A DNA stretch of 64,000 bases from Lewinella sp. W8 (GTDB taxonomy: Bacteria; Bacteroidota; Bacteroidia; Chitinophagales; Saprospiraceae), in assembly GCF_004375085.3 (NCBI RefSeq), contig NZ_SNAQ03000004.1:186001-250000 (forward strand), written 5' to 3'. The notes below the pieces were generated by a model. That model searched no databases, was not told the origin of the DNA, and saw only the letters and a program-made list of their open reading frames with translations. The stretch's first letter is position 1. Each line of letters begins with the position of its first letter. This document shows positions 3,362-10,180 of this stretch, piece by piece. The position numbers and the translations under genes were made by a program.

Positions 3362-4948
3362 TTATTTTTTTGCGGTGGGCGGAATAAGGTCGTAGCGTTC
3401 TCCGCGGAAGACCAGGTCAAACTGCGCCCAATCTGCCTCCCCGGATCCCAGCGCATCCTTAAAGAAAATATTCGCCTCGAAGACGACTTCATTATCGGGA
3501 TAGGTCACCTCCACCATTTTGGCGTGGGGAGGTAGGGAGCCCTTCCGTACGTTCCCGGAAGTAATCAACCGATTGCCGGTTACGGGCAGGTCATCCACGT
3601 CGCTGGTGATGGGGGAATACATTTCCAGGCCCCGTTGCTTTCCGTACTCCCAGACTTGGGTAACGGTTCCGCGGGCGGCGTCGATTTGGTATTCCACGGC
3701 GCGGGAATAGCTGGGGTCCGGCTGGTAATTCCGGCGCAATCCGTTATCGAAGAGCAGCAGGTTACCGTTCGGGAGGACATTGAGGGCGTGCTGGCCCATG
3801 GGCCAGTCGAAATCTTCGGCAGATTCGACGCCCTGCTGGACTGCAGGAGGATAAAGGTTGCCGTTGGCATCCACCGCCCGCAGCAGGTATTCGGAGGTCG
3901 TTAGCCCCTTGCCGTCCAGGCCGGCCTTATCCCAGGCTACCAGTGGGGCAAAAATCCACTGAAGCTGGTTATCCTGATTGACTTTGACGACCCCCTGGTT
4001 GCGGCCGGAGACCAGGATGCCATTATCGGCCGGATCAACGGTAATGGAGTTTACGTGAAACCAGTCCGTGGCGGGGTTCATTCCGTAATCCCCGGGGAAG
4101 ATGGAACGGTCCACGTCGAGTACTTCGCGCATGTCCCAGTCCCTGACCGTACGGTTATTTTTTCGGTCCCAAAGCACCACGTGATCGAAACGGGTAGGAA
4201 CTTCCTGGCCGTCCCGGATGACGTAGCTGTCCTTTTTAGACCCTCCCATTAACAACTGATCATTGGGCATTTCGAGGACTTCGTGATTGCCCGCATTCCC
4301 CCACATCTGTTCCTGGCGGATGGTCTTGCCCAGGTCATCGACCTCCAGAATGTCGATCCAGTTCAGGTAAAGCCAGTTGCCGTTGCTCAGGCGATGAGTG
4401 GTGTAGGTGATTTGTCCGTTTTCGCTCATGTCCATGAACCAGCGGACGGTGCCCCGGTCATCGAAGAGCACCGTATACGGCAGGAATTTGCCGTCGTTGG
4501 CAATGAGCAAATCCATGAGGTGAAAACCACTCTCCATCCGCTCACGATTCACCACCGTGACGTCCACTTCGGGGAAGGTGGCCGGCAGGGGTTGCGTGGT
4601 GAGATTTGTCGTTCCGGTATAGACGGTGCCCGATTCGGTGGTCAGGGTAATTTCTACGGGATTGTCCTGTCCGGGATAGAGCCCGAGTACCGGGACGGAG
4701 TGATTCTTTGCCGGGCGGGGGAATTCCCGGGTTACCGGGATGTCTCCGGGCACGGTAATCGATACCCAGCAGGGCTCTTCGGTGCGGAAAGTCAGTTCTG
4801 CTCCCAGCGGAACTCTTCCGTAGGGATTGACCACCGCGTCAATGGGACCAAGTAACACCTCATCAATGGAGCGAGGGTCCTGGTTGCAACCAACCAGAAA
4901 AAGAAAGCATAGGGTGTAAATGGTTAACCCCTTAAGGGTTTGTTTCAT
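3362..4948 (-). CDS. Arylsulfotransferase (ASST) family lipoprotein
   Basis: This 528-residue protein has a lipoprotein signal peptide with lipobox FLFLVGC. An N-terminal beta-sandwich (to about residue 120) precedes a beta-propeller-like body with repeats typical of the ASST family, for example GQHALNVLPNGNLLLFDNG and HVNSITVDPADNGILVSG, each with the aromatic/Asn-Gly turns of that fold. Known ASST enzymes move sulfate between phenolic donors and acceptors in the periplasm without PAPS, via a catalytic histidine. The neighbouring cytosolic-type sulfotransferase suggests a shared sulfation theme. The family call is good; the substrate is unknown and non-enzymatic ASST-fold members exist. Confidence 0.75.
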   Translation of the reverse strand: MKQTLKGLTIYTLCFLFLVGCNQDPRSIDEVLLGPIDAVVNPYGRVPLGAELTFRTEEPCWVSITVPGDIPVTREFPRPAKNHSVPVLGLYPGQDNPVEITLTTESGTVYTGTTNLTTQPLPATFPEVDVTVVNRERMESGFHLMDLLIANDGKFLPYTVLFDDRGTVRWFMDMSENGQITYTTHRLSNGNWLYLNWIDILEVDDLGKTIRQEQMWGNAGNHEVLEMPNDQLLMGGSKKDSYVIRDGQEVPTRFDHVVLWDRKNNRTVRDWDMREVLDVDRSIFPGDYGMNPATDWFHVNSITVDPADNGILVSGRNQGVVKVNQDNQLQWIFAPLVAWDKAGLDGKGLTTSEYLLRAVDANGNLYPPAVQQGVESAEDFDWPMGQHALNVLPNGNLLLFDNGLRRNYQPDPSYSRAVEYQIDAARGTVTQVWEYGKQRGLEMYSPITSDVDDLPVTGNRLITSGNVRKGSLPPHAKMVEVTYPDNEVVFEANIFFKDALGSGEADWAQFDLVFRGERYDLIPPTAKK

Positions 4949-5272: not shown

Positions 5273-5494
5273 TTACTCTTCAATGAGCGAGCGGGCCAGG
5301 CGAGCGGCCTTGGCGCAGGTGGAGGCCGTTACCGTCACGTCGTCGCCATCAACCTGAACGGTTACGGAACAATCAGCGGTCAGATCAGCAGGTACCGCGG
5401 GCATTACTTCGCCGCCGGCCATGGCGTTATTGGCGATGGCAAAAATTGCCACGAGAGAAAGAGAGAAAGAAAGGATAATGGATTTGAACTTCAT
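5273..5494 (-). CDS. Small secreted two-cysteine protein (cassette paralogue 1)
   Basis: This 73-residue protein has a clear signal peptide (MKFKSIILSFSLSLVAIFA...NAMA). The mature part of about 47 residues ends with the block ADCSVTVQVDGDDVTVTAS then TCAKAARLARSLIEE. The same block, cysteine then beta-hairpin then cysteine then a short charged helix, recurs in the genes at 9544-9828 (both cysteines kept) and 9181-9444 (both cysteines replaced), so the three are paralogues. It is the last gene before a strong terminator. I do not recognise the family. The two cysteines could form a disulfide in the periplasm or outside the cell. Confidence 0.75.
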   Translation of the reverse strand: MKFKSIILSFSLSLVAIFAIANNAMAGGEVMPAVPADLTADCSVTVQVDGDDVTVTASTCAKAARLARSLIEE

Positions 5495-5527
5495 GATATT
5501 AAATATTTATAATTAGTGATATATTTA

Positions 5528-8215
5528 TTAGAAAGACCACCGAACTCCCCCCATGAAGGTGCGCGGACGCAGGACGAAACTGCGCTGAGAGATTTGGTAG
5601 CTGTTTACGAGGTTTTGGAAGAATTCTCCCTGGTTGAGGAGATTCAGGCCGTCGACGTGAAGCTTTAAGCGATCACTGATCGGGCAACGGAATTTGAAGG
5701 AAAGCAGCTGCACGTCCGTGGCTTGCCCGCCCTGTTCCCAGATGAATCCGCTGGCCCTCAGCGCCAGGCTGGTCTGCTTGGCCAGCTGAAGGGTCATGGT
5801 AGAGTTATAGGTATAGGTGTAGTGGCCATTGCGCCCCAGTTCCGGACCTCCAATCTGACTATTTTCCGCCGAACGGTATCCCAGGGTTACCGAGAATTTC
5901 AGCCAATCGGTTACGGTACTCAGATAGCGGAGGTCTCCGGCAAATATCTGATAGCGGTTTAGCGTAAGTTCCTGGTTCAGGTTGAGTTGGTTGTCGAACC
6001 GGATCAACTTGAATTTCACCTCCACGGAGCCCTTGATCAGTTGAATGTACTTACTGATGCCGCCCCGGAGTTGCAATGAACTGGAGGGGAATCCGGCTTC
6101 CAGTTGCTGCAGGGTAAACAAGGGTTCAACGGAAAGCGACCGCTGAAGGCCGTTGGGAATGCGCGTCCGTTGCAGGCCTACGTAGTAGGATAATTGACGG
6201 AAGGTATTGTTGTAATTGTAGCGCAACCCAAAGCTGCTGGTTTTTTGCAGGTACAGCGTATCCAGTCCCGTCATCAGGGTTTGGTAATCGGACAGGTAGG
6301 GTACCGATACCAACTGGTTCACGCCCGGTAGTTCCTGCTTCAGCTCTGCGCTTGCGCTGATCCGACTGCGGGACGAGATTTCGTATTCTGCCTGAGCGTA
6401 GGGAAGGAAGAGCAGGTTGCGGAAATTACGGTCCCCTCCGTTTTCTCCCTGGGTGTACCACAGGTTGGACATGGAGATGGCCAGGCCGCCGTTCGTTTCC
6501 AGTTTTCCGAACGTACGGGAGACGGTGCTTTCCAGGTACGTTTCGTCAAACTTGTAGTGCAGGTCATTGGCGTTCTGCGGAAGGGCGTCGGTGGGTTCTT
6601 CGGCCAGGGAAGTGAGCAGCGTATTGACGTCCCCTCCGGTGATGCGATGTCCGATCGTACCGTTGAGGAACCATCCTTTATAATTGTAGAGGACTTCCAC
6701 GTGAGGATCAATTCCGCGGGTCGATTCGGCGGCCTGCTGACGCAGGCCAAGCGCGGCCTGGGGGAACAGGCTCTGATACCGGTCACTTTCGTAGTCCGCC
6801 ACCTGGTCATTGGTGTTCAGGTTACCGGTCAGGATGAACCGAAAGGCGAGCAGGTCGGTGGCCCGCAGGGTATACCGAAGGTCTCCCTGGAGCGCGACGG
6901 GCGTCCCCTCCAGGGAGGTGCCCAGGGCGTTTACCCGCTCCGCGGTTTGGGAGCTCAACTCCGCCGAAAGATCCGATCTGCTCAGCATGGCGTTGAGGTC
7001 CAGGTCCAGGCGACTCTTCTTCCCCAACACGATTTTACTTTCGTTATCGATCCACGCACTGCCCAGGGATTCACGGTAGAGCTTGAAGTTATCCACGGTA
7101 ACGGGGAAATTCTGGTTAAAGAAATTCAGCCGTTCCAGGTTATCCAGCCGGAATAAATTGTTATCCAGGGAGAATATCGTCCGGCTCTTCACCTTTTTGC
7201 TGGGATTAAAGAGCAGCGAGCCGGCGGTGGCGTACACCTCGTTCTGCAGATACTCCTGAGAGCCGATTGACTTGGGACGGCTACCACGAGGAGAAGACAG
7301 AAGCCCCGTCCGCTGACCAGAAAAGGCGCTGATGTTTCCATCCATCTGGTAGGCGAGATCGAGTCCGCTGGTCGGTTCAAATCCGGCCGTGTTGTTTTGG
7401 GCGAAGAGAATCGACTTTGTTTTACCGGACAGCATGAAGAGGTTGGCGTCGTTCATGGAGACGTCCGGCGTGCCGTGGATCAGGGTAAGCTCGCCGAAGA
7501 TCAGTTTCTTTCTGGAGTCTTCCAGATTGAGGTTCAGCACCAGTTCCTCGTCATTACTCAGGTCTCCCGTCAGGTCATCTTCCTTGAAATTACTGATGAC
7601 GTCTACCCGGTCAATGAAGCCGGCATTAATGTTTTGGGTGGCCAGTCGGTAATTCGACCCGAAGGCATCTTCGCCGTCGATCAGTACCCGGTCGATGGAT
7701 TTTCCCTGGACGCTGATTTGTCCCTTCTCGTCTACTTCTACCCCGGGAAGCTTTTTCAGCATGTCTTCCACTTTTTCTTCGGTCCCGTCCGTAAAAGAAT
7801 CCGTATCGTAGATGAGGGTATCCTGTTTCATGGCCAGGGGCAGCGCCTCGGCTGAAATCACAATTTCTTCAATTTCAATGGCCGCATTTTTCAGGACGAT
7901 CTTTTTGGAGACTCCTGGCGTCCATAATGGCAGGGTATAATTTGCGTAGCCAAACATCCTGATTTCGATGTTCATGGATTCCGCGGGCTCCTCGGGTACT
8001 TCAATGGAAAAATTTCCGTCTAAATCCGCAAGGGAATATCCCTTGATGGCGTCTCCCTGCTTTAGGATGACTTGTGCGGAGGCCAGTAGGGTTCCTTCTT
8101 CATCCTGCACGATTCCAGTCAGCGCTTGTTGCGCAAAAACACTTCCGGCGAAAAAGCTAAAAACTAATATAAGAGAGCAGCTAACTAAATTGAATTGTTT
8201 ATTTCGAGGCCACAT
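5528..8215 (-). CDS. TonB-receptor-like outer-membrane beta-barrel with carboxypeptidase-regulatory domain
   Basis: The 895-residue protein has a signal peptide ending VFAQQ, then a carboxypeptidase-D regulatory-like domain (about residues 30-110: LTGIVQDEEGTLLASAQVIL, DLDGNFSIEVP). Next comes a plug-like domain (about 120-240) with DMLKKLPGVEVDEKG and SVQGKSIDRVLIDGEDAFG, and then a long barrel ending RTFMGGVRWSF with the usual terminal Phe. No TonB box is obvious, as is common in this outer-membrane beta-barrel group often found next to GLPGLI genes. The start at MWPRNKQF is preferred over one 30 codons upstream because it begins the signal peptide. It probably exports, imports or binds the cassette's small products; that is inference. 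Confidence 0.8.
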   Translation of the reverse strand: MWPRNKQFNLVSCSLILVFSFFAGSVFAQQALTGIVQDEEGTLLASAQVILKQGDAIKGYSLADLDGNFSIEVPEEPAESMNIEIRMFGYANYTLPLWTPGVSKKIVLKNAAIEIEEIVISAEALPLAMKQDTLIYDTDSFTDGTEEKVEDMLKKLPGVEVDEKGQISVQGKSIDRVLIDGEDAFGSNYRLATQNINAGFIDRVDVISNFKEDDLTGDLSNDEELVLNLNLEDSRKKLIFGELTLIHGTPDVSMNDANLFMLSGKTKSILFAQNNTAGFEPTSGLDLAYQMDGNISAFSGQRTGLLSSPRGSRPKSIGSQEYLQNEVYATAGSLLFNPSKKVKSRTIFSLDNNLFRLDNLERLNFFNQNFPVTVDNFKLYRESLGSAWIDNESKIVLGKKSRLDLDLNAMLSRSDLSAELSSQTAERVNALGTSLEGTPVALQGDLRYTLRATDLLAFRFILTGNLNTNDQVADYESDRYQSLFPQAALGLRQQAAESTRGIDPHVEVLYNYKGWFLNGTIGHRITGGDVNTLLTSLAEEPTDALPQNANDLHYKFDETYLESTVSRTFGKLETNGGLAISMSNLWYTQGENGGDRNFRNLLFLPYAQAEYEISSRSRISASAELKQELPGVNQLVSVPYLSDYQTLMTGLDTLYLQKTSSFGLRYNYNNTFRQLSYYVGLQRTRIPNGLQRSLSVEPLFTLQQLEAGFPSSSLQLRGGISKYIQLIKGSVEVKFKLIRFDNQLNLNQELTLNRYQIFAGDLRYLSTVTDWLKFSVTLGYRSAENSQIGGPELGRNGHYTYTYNSTMTLQLAKQTSLALRASGFIWEQGGQATDVQLLSFKFRCPISDRLKLHVDGLNLLNQGEFFQNLVNSYQISQRSFVLRPRTFMGGVRWSF

Positions 8216-8236
8216 GATATGTTCTTTGTGGCTCCC

Positions 8237-8275
8237 AGCGAGGGTTGTCCTTTTGTCCATTGACAACCCTCGCTG
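8237..8275. promoter_or_regulatory. Perfect 14-bp hairpin in the leader of the barrel gene
   Basis: CAGCGAGGGTTGTC pairs perfectly with GACAACCCTCGCTG around a 12-base loop. It lies 22 bases upstream of the chosen start of the barrel gene. There is no T-run behind it on the minus strand, so it looks more like a leader structure or RNA-processing site than a terminator. It could set different expression levels for the GLPGLI gene and the barrel gene. Confidence 0.5.
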
Positions 8276-8396
8276 TTCAGCCGGTTTATATACTATCCGG
8301 TTCATTATTACGCACCGAAAGAATTGGATATTTATCTATTAAAATCTACTCATTAGGTTACTGATGATACCATCAGGTAAGGATCGTACTATTTGA

Positions 8397-9152
8397 TTAT
8401 TTAGCGATCTCGAAGTAACTCTTCTTCTTCGCGGGGCGTACGGTTACCCCCGGGTGAGCAGAAATCTTTTTCACCCATTCTTCGTCCTTGCGCACGCGGG
8501 TATCGAAGAAGCCTTCAAAGCTGATGTTCATCCCGTTCCGGGGGGCTTTATTCCAGGCGATGGTGGCAGGGTCAACCTGCTTCAGTCCGGCAAAAATGAA
8601 CTGGATCATTCCGTCACGGGCCTTCGCTTCGAGGATCAGGCCGGGCAGTCCGCCGAGTTTCCAGGGGCCGACGTTGAGGGGAATTTCCTGAGCGAACCAG
8701 GCGTCGTATACGCGGCCGCGGAAGGTGGTAACCGCCAGCTGACACTGATAACCACCGATTTCTTTCGTTTCTTCTTTGATCTCCCAGCTGATCTGGGGAA
8801 TATCCTCCTTGATGATGAAGGGTTGGTCTTTGATCATGTCCCGGGAGACGATGGATTTATCGTCCTGATTACGGTAAAAGACGTATCCCCGAGCGTCGCT
8901 GTAAATGATCTTTACGGAGTTGTTGTCTCCCCGGAAAACCTGCTTGCCTTCGCCGCCCTGTCCGAATCGGTAGGTGGATTCCACACCATTGGATACCAGT
9001 TGAGCGTAGTAATCCGTGCTGAAGAAATCTCCGTTGGGTTGGTTCGGGCGGGGGTTCGTTTTCTGTAGATAGGTAACCTCAACGCCCGATTGTGCGAATA
9101 TGCTGGCGGCAAAAAAGACCAGGCTAAATACGGTAAGAATAAAGTTTTTCAT
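8397..9152 (-). CDS. GLPGLI family secreted protein
   Basis: This 251-residue protein carries the family-defining motif as KLGGLPGLILEAKARDG at about residue 165, after a signal peptide MKNFILTVFSLVFFAASIFAQ. The family is restricted to Bacteroidota and has no settled function. Its members often sit next to TonB-like barrels with a carboxypeptidase-regulatory domain and near small peptide genes, exactly as here. It lies 28 bases after the cysteine-less small secreted protein and 181 bases before the barrel gene, so the cassette is likely one or two transcripts. The predicted location is the periplasm or outer membrane. Confidence 0.9.
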   Translation of the reverse strand: MKNFILTVFSLVFFAASIFAQSGVEVTYLQKTNPRPNQPNGDFFSTDYYAQLVSNGVESTYRFGQGGEGKQVFRGDNNSVKIIYSDARGYVFYRNQDDKSIVSRDMIKDQPFIIKEDIPQISWEIKEETKEIGGYQCQLAVTTFRGRVYDAWFAQEIPLNVGPWKLGGLPGLILEAKARDGMIQFIFAGLKQVDPATIAWNKAPRNGMNISFEGFFDTRVRKDEEWVKKISAHPGVTVRPAKKKSYFEIAK

Positions 9153-9180
9153 GACTATCAGATATTATTGGTGTGCGATA

Positions 9181-9444
9181 TTACTTTTCCGTCAATTCTG
9201 CTACGGCGCGCTTCAACTGCTGAGTGGCTTCGTAGTAGGAGTTGGCCGTAGACGTTACGGCGTGGACTGACTGGTCAATCTGCAGGTTGACGGTAACCGA
9301 AAAATCACTATTGACCTGGGTGTATTCGAGGGTCAGCACCTCCACGGTTTCGGTGCTTAGCGATTCGGTGGTGGGCAACTCAGTGGAAGCCATGGGAGAT
9401 ACCGTAAAAAACCCGATTACCACGGCGAAGAAAGAATTGTACAT
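9181..9444 (-). CDS. Small secreted protein, cysteine-less paralogue (cassette paralogue 3)
   Basis: The 87-residue protein has a short hydrophobic start (MYNSFFAVVIGFFTVSPMAS). Its C-terminal block SDFSVTVNLQIDQSVHAVTS then YYEATQQLKRAVAELTEK aligns with the cysteine blocks of the genes at 5273-5494 and 9544-9828. Phe replaces the first cysteine and Tyr or Ser the second. The paired loss implies the two cysteines bond with each other in the paralogues. It may be a decoy, chaperone-like or immunity partner, or simply diverged; there is no direct evidence. Confidence 0.65.
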   Translation of the reverse strand: MYNSFFAVVIGFFTVSPMASTELPTTESLSTETVEVLTLEYTQVNSDFSVTVNLQIDQSVHAVTSTANSYYEATQQLKRAVAELTEK

Positions 9445-9475
9445 GATTATATTTTTTTAGCGATGAAAGGATGGT

Positions 9476-9520
9476 CCACACGTCGTTTATGGTCGGTGAT
9501 TTACGACCGAAGTCGTGTGG
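9476..9520. promoter_or_regulatory. Nested hairpin between two small secreted-protein genes
   Basis: An outer stem CCACACG/CGTGTGG encloses an inner stem GGTCG/CGACC. It fills the 99-base gap between the two paralogous genes and has no clear T-run, so an attenuator or processing site is possible. Confidence 0.4.
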
Positions 9521-9543
9521 TTAAAGTGGTTGAGAAATTCTGA

Positions 9544-9828
9544 TTATTCAAAGACCTCCTGTACCATGCGGCGAGCTTCGGAGCAGGTCTCAGCCGTAGC
9601 GGAAACCGTAGCCTCCTGGCCCAGAATGCTGATGGTAGCCGTAACCGTACACTCGGCATCGTCACCCAGGGTGGTGCTGATGAAAGTGATGGTGTGAGGA
9701 ACGTTGTTGCTGTCGTATACTACTACCGTGTCCTTGGGAGTGTCCTCCAGAGGAGCTACGTCGCCGGCAAAAGCGAAAGTGGAAACGAGAGCGAGTGCGA
9801 GTGCGAGAAAGAAATTTTTGAATTTCAT
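9544..9828 (-). CDS. Small secreted two-cysteine protein (cassette paralogue 2)
   Basis: Starting at MKFKNFFLALALALVSTFAFA, which closely matches the signal peptide of the paralogue at 5273-5494, the product is 94 residues. The mature part has an acidic linker and ends AECTVTATISILGQEATVSA then TCSEARRMVQEVFE, the same Cys-strand-strand-Cys-helix block. A start 15 codons upstream exists but would place residues before the signal peptide and is rejected. Its position right after the Gly-Gly peptide gene (82 bases) puts it near the head of the cassette. Function unknown. Confidence 0.75.
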   Translation of the reverse strand: MKFKNFFLALALALVSTFAFAGDVAPLEDTPKDTVVVYDSNNVPHTITFISTTLGDDAECTVTATISILGQEATVSATAETCSEARRMVQEVFE

Positions 9829-9910
9829 AATAAATGGATTTAAAAAAGAAATGAAGAAATGATTGACCTCCACTTCGTGCGAACCATCCAGTTCGAATTA
9901 CTCTAAAGGA

Positions 9911-10072
9911 TTATCCTTTGCCTCCCAGAATGGTATCCGGAAAGGGGTTATAAGGACCCGTAGAGCCACCGATTGGCCATCCGTCATCATCGTCGTTAGG
10001 ATCATCCCAGCAATCAGGGTTTCCTCCAATGATATTTTTGACCTGGTGAAGGCGAAGATGTTGGATCTTCAT
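9911..10072 (-). CDS. Short Asp-rich peptide with Gly-Gly leader-like motif
   Basis: The 53-residue product starts MKIQHLRLHQVKNIIGG and continues with an acidic, aromatic, Pro/Gly-rich part (NPDCWDDPNDDDDGWPIGG... ending ILGGKG). A charged/amphipathic N-terminus ending in GG is how Bacteroidota double-glycine leader peptides look, where a peptidase-containing ABC exporter cuts after GG. No such exporter or maturation enzyme lies in this window. The peptide has one cysteine and two tryptophans. It is the first gene behind a good promoter match, which supports it as a real gene. It could instead be a small regulatory or structural protein. Confidence 0.55.
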   Translation of the reverse strand: MKIQHLRLHQVKNIIGGNPDCWDDPNDDDDGWPIGGSTGPYNPFPDTILGGKG

Positions 10073-10149
10073 GGTGAAAAAATTTAAATAAATGATAAAA
10101 TGGTTCGTCAACCAGGATTGGAAAATTCCTTTCCCGTTGTTGACACTTC

Positions 10150-10180
10150 AAATATGGGGGGATCAGCCAGGGCACTCAAA
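10150..10180 (-). promoter_or_regulatory. Promoter of the small-protein/GLPGLI cassette
   Basis: On the minus strand TTTG is followed after 19 bases by CATATTTG. This matches the Bacteroidota arrangement of a -33 TTTG, 19-21 bases, then TAnnTTTG, with one mismatch in the -7 box. It sits 78 bases upstream of the Gly-Gly peptide start and would drive the whole minus-strand cassette. Confidence 0.5.

Follow-up and report, generated by a model that had tools for sequence, protein, structure and literature searches.

In a 64,000-nucleotide stretch of the Lewinella sp. W8 genome (contig NZ_SNAQ03000004.1, positions 186,001 to 250,000; hereafter, the window), six minus-strand genes (10072-5273; Table 1) form a cassette encoding, in this order, a peptide with a Gly-Gly (GG) leader, small proteins P2 and P3, a GLPGLI family protein, an outer-membrane barrel protein and a further small protein, P1. 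Comparative analysis of this cassette across Bacteroidota revealed that small proteins with signal peptides, mostly with an even number of cysteines (Cys), are encoded directly beside genes for GLPGLI proteins and for barrels with CarboxypepD_reg and plug regions in several families of the phylum. The recurrence of this trio in distant relatives suggests a dedicated export or handling of mini-proteins that are probably disulfide-bonded. In the reading that we favor, with a probability of roughly one half, these mini-proteins would be exported by Sec, chaperoned by GLPGLI and passed out by the barrel, i.e., via a dedicated outer-membrane delivery route. A broader version, in which GLPGLI proteins (as LolA-like periplasmic chaperones) and Oar-type barrels would make up a widespread, hitherto undescribed Bacteroidota outer-membrane secretion pathway with exchangeable disulfide mini-protein cargo, is more tentative, its odds falling somewhat short of even.

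The association was assessed in two directions, starting from GLPGLI genes and from the small proteins. For the forward survey, GLPGLI homologues were taken from 36 named loci, 345 phylum genomes (77 with a match at E ≤1e-15) and 21 genus genomes. The analyzed set combined 80 phylum stretches of ~11 kilobases (kb), chosen by match strength and supplemented by weaker matches across the range, with 32 named loci, ten stretches from the genus and the initial 20 kb of the window. It comprised 128 GLPGLI-bearing clusters, 124 of which were kept (four had <450 bases upstream); duplicate loci (L051, L052, L053, L066; identity checked) were removed before the count. By a crude rule (a same-strand open reading frame (ORF) of 50-135 amino acids (aa) that ends ≤450 bases upstream and encodes a signal peptide followed by two or more Cys in the mature part), a small Cys ORF preceded GLPGLI in 36/69 clusters where the barrel follows GLPGLI, vs. 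5/35 GLPGLI-only and 1/20 barrel-first clusters, 12/559 other genes of ≥200 aa and 15/1380 shuffled upstream regions. Where at least 300 bases are free upstream, the respective counts for genomic loci are 35/54, 5/30, 1/8 and 9/245. Some selection bias is present, since loci in which small proteins had already been noticed contributed to the GLPGLI profile (A6); of the 69 clusters, 15 come from these loci, 14 of them positive, and 22 of 54 are positive once these are excluded. Positives occur in 18 of the 37 genus codes or named loci. Review by eye flagged two probable false positives (L145, L065) and three missed positives (L123, L192, L042). The 12 control positives include P1 of the window and its counterpart in Neolewinella lacunae, both cassette members, and four are presumably copies of a lumazine synthase.

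In the reverse direction, profile A8 (14 small proteins) was searched against 392 phylum and 150 family genomes and profile A12 (18 small proteins) against 375 class and 376 order genomes, these sets overlapping and each containing the window's genome. Matches at E ≤0.001 were obtained with A8 in at least 8 phylum and 4 family genomes, and matches with A12 in at least 5 class and 11 order genomes, all lower bounds as a limited set of first-look candidates was scored. The numbers are small because most small proteins of the forward survey are too divergent or belong to other Cys frameworks. Among new small-ORF matches outside the profiles, 12 of 13 lie inside GLPGLI/barrel clusters, a count that omits profile members, repeats of counted matches and L248-L250, where the match is part of a large ORF (545-1197 aa) and thus not a small protein, with no GLPGLI gene in the flanks; with these three included, the fraction is 12/16. 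Eleven of the 12 are directly upstream of GLPGLI, and one (L207) follows the barrel, from which a single 121-aa ORF separates it, in a cassette (G500) that has another upstream. The thirteenth match, in genome G111, is the exception. The 12 are not all from independent genera (L208, L209 and L258 belong to one, L259-L262 to another), and L203, L204, L253 and L263 align only to about the first 60-75 profile positions. The co-occurrence of small proteins with GLPGLI and barrel genes proposed in the preliminary description, which homologues lying mostly elsewhere would have refuted, is thus borne out in both directions; it also reaches beyond the family, into others and into at least one further class.

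The small genes themselves are real, as indicated by a ratio of nonsynonymous to synonymous substitution rates (dN/dS) of 0.16, 0.16 and 0.21 for the small homologue that precedes GLPGLI in three relatives' genomes. P1 and P2, the sole two small-protein profile matches in the window's own genome, share a C-terminal block, as had been claimed: none of 1000 shuffles reaches either score with a profile built without both. The accompanying claim that P3 is their Cys-less paralogue was not established by shuffle tests, its score with two P1/P2-type models being reached by 38/1000 and 15/1000 shuffles for the window copy and by 363/1000 and 144/1000 for that of N. lacunae. Among 99 genomes, a single-sequence search with P2 reached only one apart from its own, and profiles and synteny were therefore needed. 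Neither the GG peptide nor P1, P2 or P3 scores over a family cut-off in Pfam or NCBIfam, and the eight small proteins scanned in total all stay under the Pfam cut-offs.

An even number of Cys is found in 35 of 38 small ORFs, arranged in frameworks grouped by eye, at least four of which appear unrelated and share the slot beside GLPGLI. P1 and P2 represent a "CTVT...TC" type. A second two-Cys type is found elsewhere in the window's genome (contig C88, L216 7305-11328; order small, GLPGLI, small, barrel), where both small proteins are of another kind than P1/P2. A four-Cys type is seen in L142, L160 and L175, and a six-Cys type of similar spacing in L041 and L044. One representative each of the second two-Cys, four-Cys and six-Cys types scored no better with P1/P2-type models than its own shuffles, and another four-Cys protein (L085) outscored its shuffles with the C-terminal model (score reached by 5/1000) but not with the full model (296/1000).

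Of the two larger partners, one was confirmed as a GLPGLI protein and the other is a probable CarboxypepD_reg/plug/barrel protein, with domain matches under Pfam cut-offs. The GLPGLI protein is a member of TIGR01200 (145 bits, cut-off 50), a family that itself has no assigned function, and also matches Porph_ging (46 bits, cut-off 25); such proteins are present in all 21 genus genomes searched and in many of the phylum. In fold comparison its structural model has the half-barrel fold of the LolA/LolB lipoprotein carriers. The barrel likely starts at the ATG at 8215 (895 aa; searches used 5528-8221, two residues longer) and shows the expected order of CarboxypepD_reg (PF13620, 22.1 bits, cut-off 32.3, E 2e-4) and plug (PF07715, 20.8 bits, cut-off 23.9, E 6e-4). 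In one surveyed locus (L139 4304-14338), a single barrel is followed by eight same-strand GLPGLI-like ORFs (one weak), with no small cystine ORF by our rule.

The combination of a LolA-type periplasmic protein with an Oar-type barrel and with small cystine proteins, which vary and carry signal peptides, fits a hand-over chain to the outer membrane and beyond. The small proteins would cross the inner membrane via Sec, oxidize in the periplasm and be held there by GLPGLI as a chaperone or carrier; the TonB-linked barrel would then receive and release them, and once outside they might act on neighbors by antagonism or signaling. In the window's lineage, a GG peptide putatively exported by a C39 transporter may be tied to the same outer-membrane route. 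We infer all of these steps past the signal peptides and folds, including the cargo status of the small proteins and the direction and purpose of their transport. The central idea of the preliminary description, that the small proteins belong with GLPGLI and the barrel, is supported, and their possible role as cargo or ligands is consistent with the LolA-type fold and the Oar-type barrel. A precedent is provided by Oar, a TonB barrel of Myxococcus xanthus needed for secretion of PopC (PMC6434023), which resembles our barrel in its CarboxypepD_reg and plug regions (matched under cut-off in our barrel); Oar's cargo, however, is a protease, and neither a GLPGLI partner nor small cystine proteins are met in the part of the Oar account available to us. 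If true, the broader reading, that of a widespread secretion pathway, would give GLPGLI its first function; the link to cystine mini-proteins and a barrel provides a concrete, testable role, bears on the transit of small proteins across the Bacteroidota outer membrane and brings into view a large set of small secreted proteins that have no Pfam or NCBIfam family over cut-off. The literature searched (mostly without subscription journals, and without bioRxiv preprints) contained no description of the trio and no link of GLPGLI to small cystine proteins; the term GLPGLI is rare in it and absent from titles and abstracts, and searches for NVEALA/DUF6520 small secreted proteins and PF14905 secreted peptides gave no relevant paper.

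Several observations weigh against this delivery route. According to the available part of the same source (PMC6434023), the Oar-type architecture dominates TonB barrels of Bacteroidetes generally, so that it does not settle direction, and the N-terminal extension of Oar is dispensable for PopC secretion. Importers are no exception, as homologues of SusC match the N-terminal part of our barrel profile; a half-barrel fold indicates no function, its ligands differing widely; no immunity gene was recognized; and P3 has no Cys. One P1/P2-type (beta-type) homologue (L210 8560-8904, genome G111) lies away from GLPGLI with no full barrel gene nearby, and, by the rule used, about half of the GLPGLI-then-barrel and most GLPGLI-only and barrel-first clusters have no small ORF.

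These missing small ORFs would be expected if the latter were chance neighbors or spurious ORFs sharing no function with GLPGLI, an explanation that we regard as refuted, and thus as highly improbable, by the enrichment over other genes and over shuffles, the reverse search and the low dN/dS values. A capture system is a more serious alternative, albeit an unlikely one: the small proteins would be secreted or surface-bound binders, hemophore-like, the barrel would import the loaded protein or its ligand, and GLPGLI would assist in the periplasm. Most known TonB barrels are importers, the SusC matches point the same way, and ligand binding by secreted cystine proteins is conceivable; yet a single shared ligand is hard to reconcile with one barrel type serving several small frameworks that are unrelated, and the Pfam and NCBIfam scans gave no known binding motif. 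Less probable still, the small proteins could remain periplasmic and act as an inhibitor or assembly factor that gates either the barrel or GLPGLI, in agreement with their carrying signal peptides only, with the run shared with the barrel and with the GLPGLI fold being also that of the periplasmic sensor RseB. For such a gate, however, both the changing frameworks and the low conservation between the window and N. lacunae (P2 41% and P1 36% identity vs. 58% for GLPGLI) would be unusual.

The N. lacunae cassette (genome G006, strain KCTC 42187, identical to locus L051 across 17,519 bases) contains all six genes in unchanged order, with identities over aligned residues of 41% for the GG peptide (L008 9339-9488; 19/46, including the GG and a CW.DP stretch), 40% for P3 (35/87, place conserved) and 53% for the barrel, in addition to those given above; the P1 counterpart (L008 4709-4948) also keeps its position. 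About 5 kb past the GG peptide, N. lacunae has an HlyD-type adaptor (114 bits to TIGR01843, under cut-off) beside a C39 peptide exporter (512 bits to TIGR01193, cut-off 524), and a "CRxxGIC" protein is encoded between peptide and exporter, together with two proteins of 490 aa that have no Pfam family. The window's genome has three C39 genes, none of them inside the window; one block, with strong similarity to the exporter of N. lacunae (1097 bits), lies on the same contig as the cassette at a distance of ~72 kb. A divergent 48-aa peptide with a second GG-type leader (LTDSELANIFGG) is encoded between the N. lacunae cassette and exporter block (L008 10187-10333).

The six ORFs described preliminarily are all present in the window, at or near the places assigned to them, and the terminator claimed after the cassette was recovered as a hairpin with a T-run; a terminator scan of the region gave 11 sites vs. 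8.6 expected from shuffles. The claimed promoter is present with one mismatch to the Bacteroidota consensus, but it is weak: the minus strand of the window has 16 sites of this quality, whereas none turned up in N. lacunae when the 331 bases preceding the GG-peptide gene were scanned less strictly. Downstream of the cassette, past the terminator, is an arylsulfotransferase (ASST) gene (3362-4948).

Table 1. Features of the cassette region (positions in the window; all lengths in aa)
Feature	Position	Strand	Remark
GG-leader peptide, 53 aa; 17-aa leader ending ...KNIIGG; Asp/Pro/Gly-rich core, one Cys	9911..10072	-	
P2, secreted, 94 aa, two Cys (C60, C82); beta4-alpha predicted	9544..9828	-	beats all 1000 profile shuffles
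P3, 87 aa, Cys-less, N-terminus signal-like by eye	9181..9444	-	same place in N. lacunae
GLPGLI family protein, 251 aa; LolA-type half-barrel fold in model	8397..9152	-	TIGR01200 145 bits
Outer-membrane barrel protein, 895 aa; Oar-type, with CarboxypepD_reg and plug matches under cut-off	5528..8215	-	
P1, secreted, 73 aa, two Cys, immediately after barrel	5273..5494	-	
Terminator-like hairpin, 11 pairs and T-run, closing the cassette	5210-5185	-	
Terminator-like hairpin, 14 pairs, after recG; upstream cassette border	10430-10399	-	
Weak promoter-like site TTTG-N20-CATATTTG	10180-10149	-	one mismatch to Bacteroidota consensus

As to the GG peptide, its presence was confirmed in the cassettes of the window and N. 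lacunae, but its standing as a general cassette part is weaker than had been stated. The window leader fits, by eye, the pattern of hydrophobic residues at -4, -7 and -12 of GG leaders. As a candidate general partner of GLPGLI, such peptides were dropped: across the surveyed loci, a strict pattern gave one matching ORF in the neighborhood of GLPGLI/barrel genes and another at a distance, a weak negative since this pattern misses the window's own leader and the by-eye leaders of L046 and L068. Locus L046 (4595-15500, genome G005) combines a GLPGLI-barrel pair with three GG-leader peptides, grasp-with-spasm maturases and a C39 exporter. It thereby joins such a pair with a Bacteroidetes graspetide locus, a type which our system resembles in its GG peptides, C39 exporter and barrel, TonB-related outer-membrane proteins having been predicted as graspetide exporters in the part of that study available to us (PMC8939145). 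P1-P3 differ in carrying Sec-type signals instead of GG leaders. The cassette and the N. lacunae region examined show no ATP-grasp or SPASM gene, and GWSG/SPASM models from L046, where both are found, match nothing in the window's first 20 kb, so that the cassette does not qualify as a graspetide locus.

The CRxxGIC protein (profile A9) was considered as a link between exporter and GLPGLI/barrel blocks. It adjoins HlyD/C39 genes in G000 and N. lacunae, and small-protein, GLPGLI or barrel genes in G018, G005 and G500. A9 matches 51/199 family genomes, and 21 of 30 loci inspected have none of the searched partners in their 1.5-kb flanks; since only the closest relatives are linked, this candidate was set aside as supporting evidence at most. 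Proteins of this kind, ~150 aa long (L213 9964-10419, L008 14003-14464, L040 153-659, L047 4788-5243, L211 14036-14506), have no Pfam family over cut-off in any of three scanned, with close relatives located beside C39/HlyD or GLPGLI/barrel genes and the wider family elsewhere.
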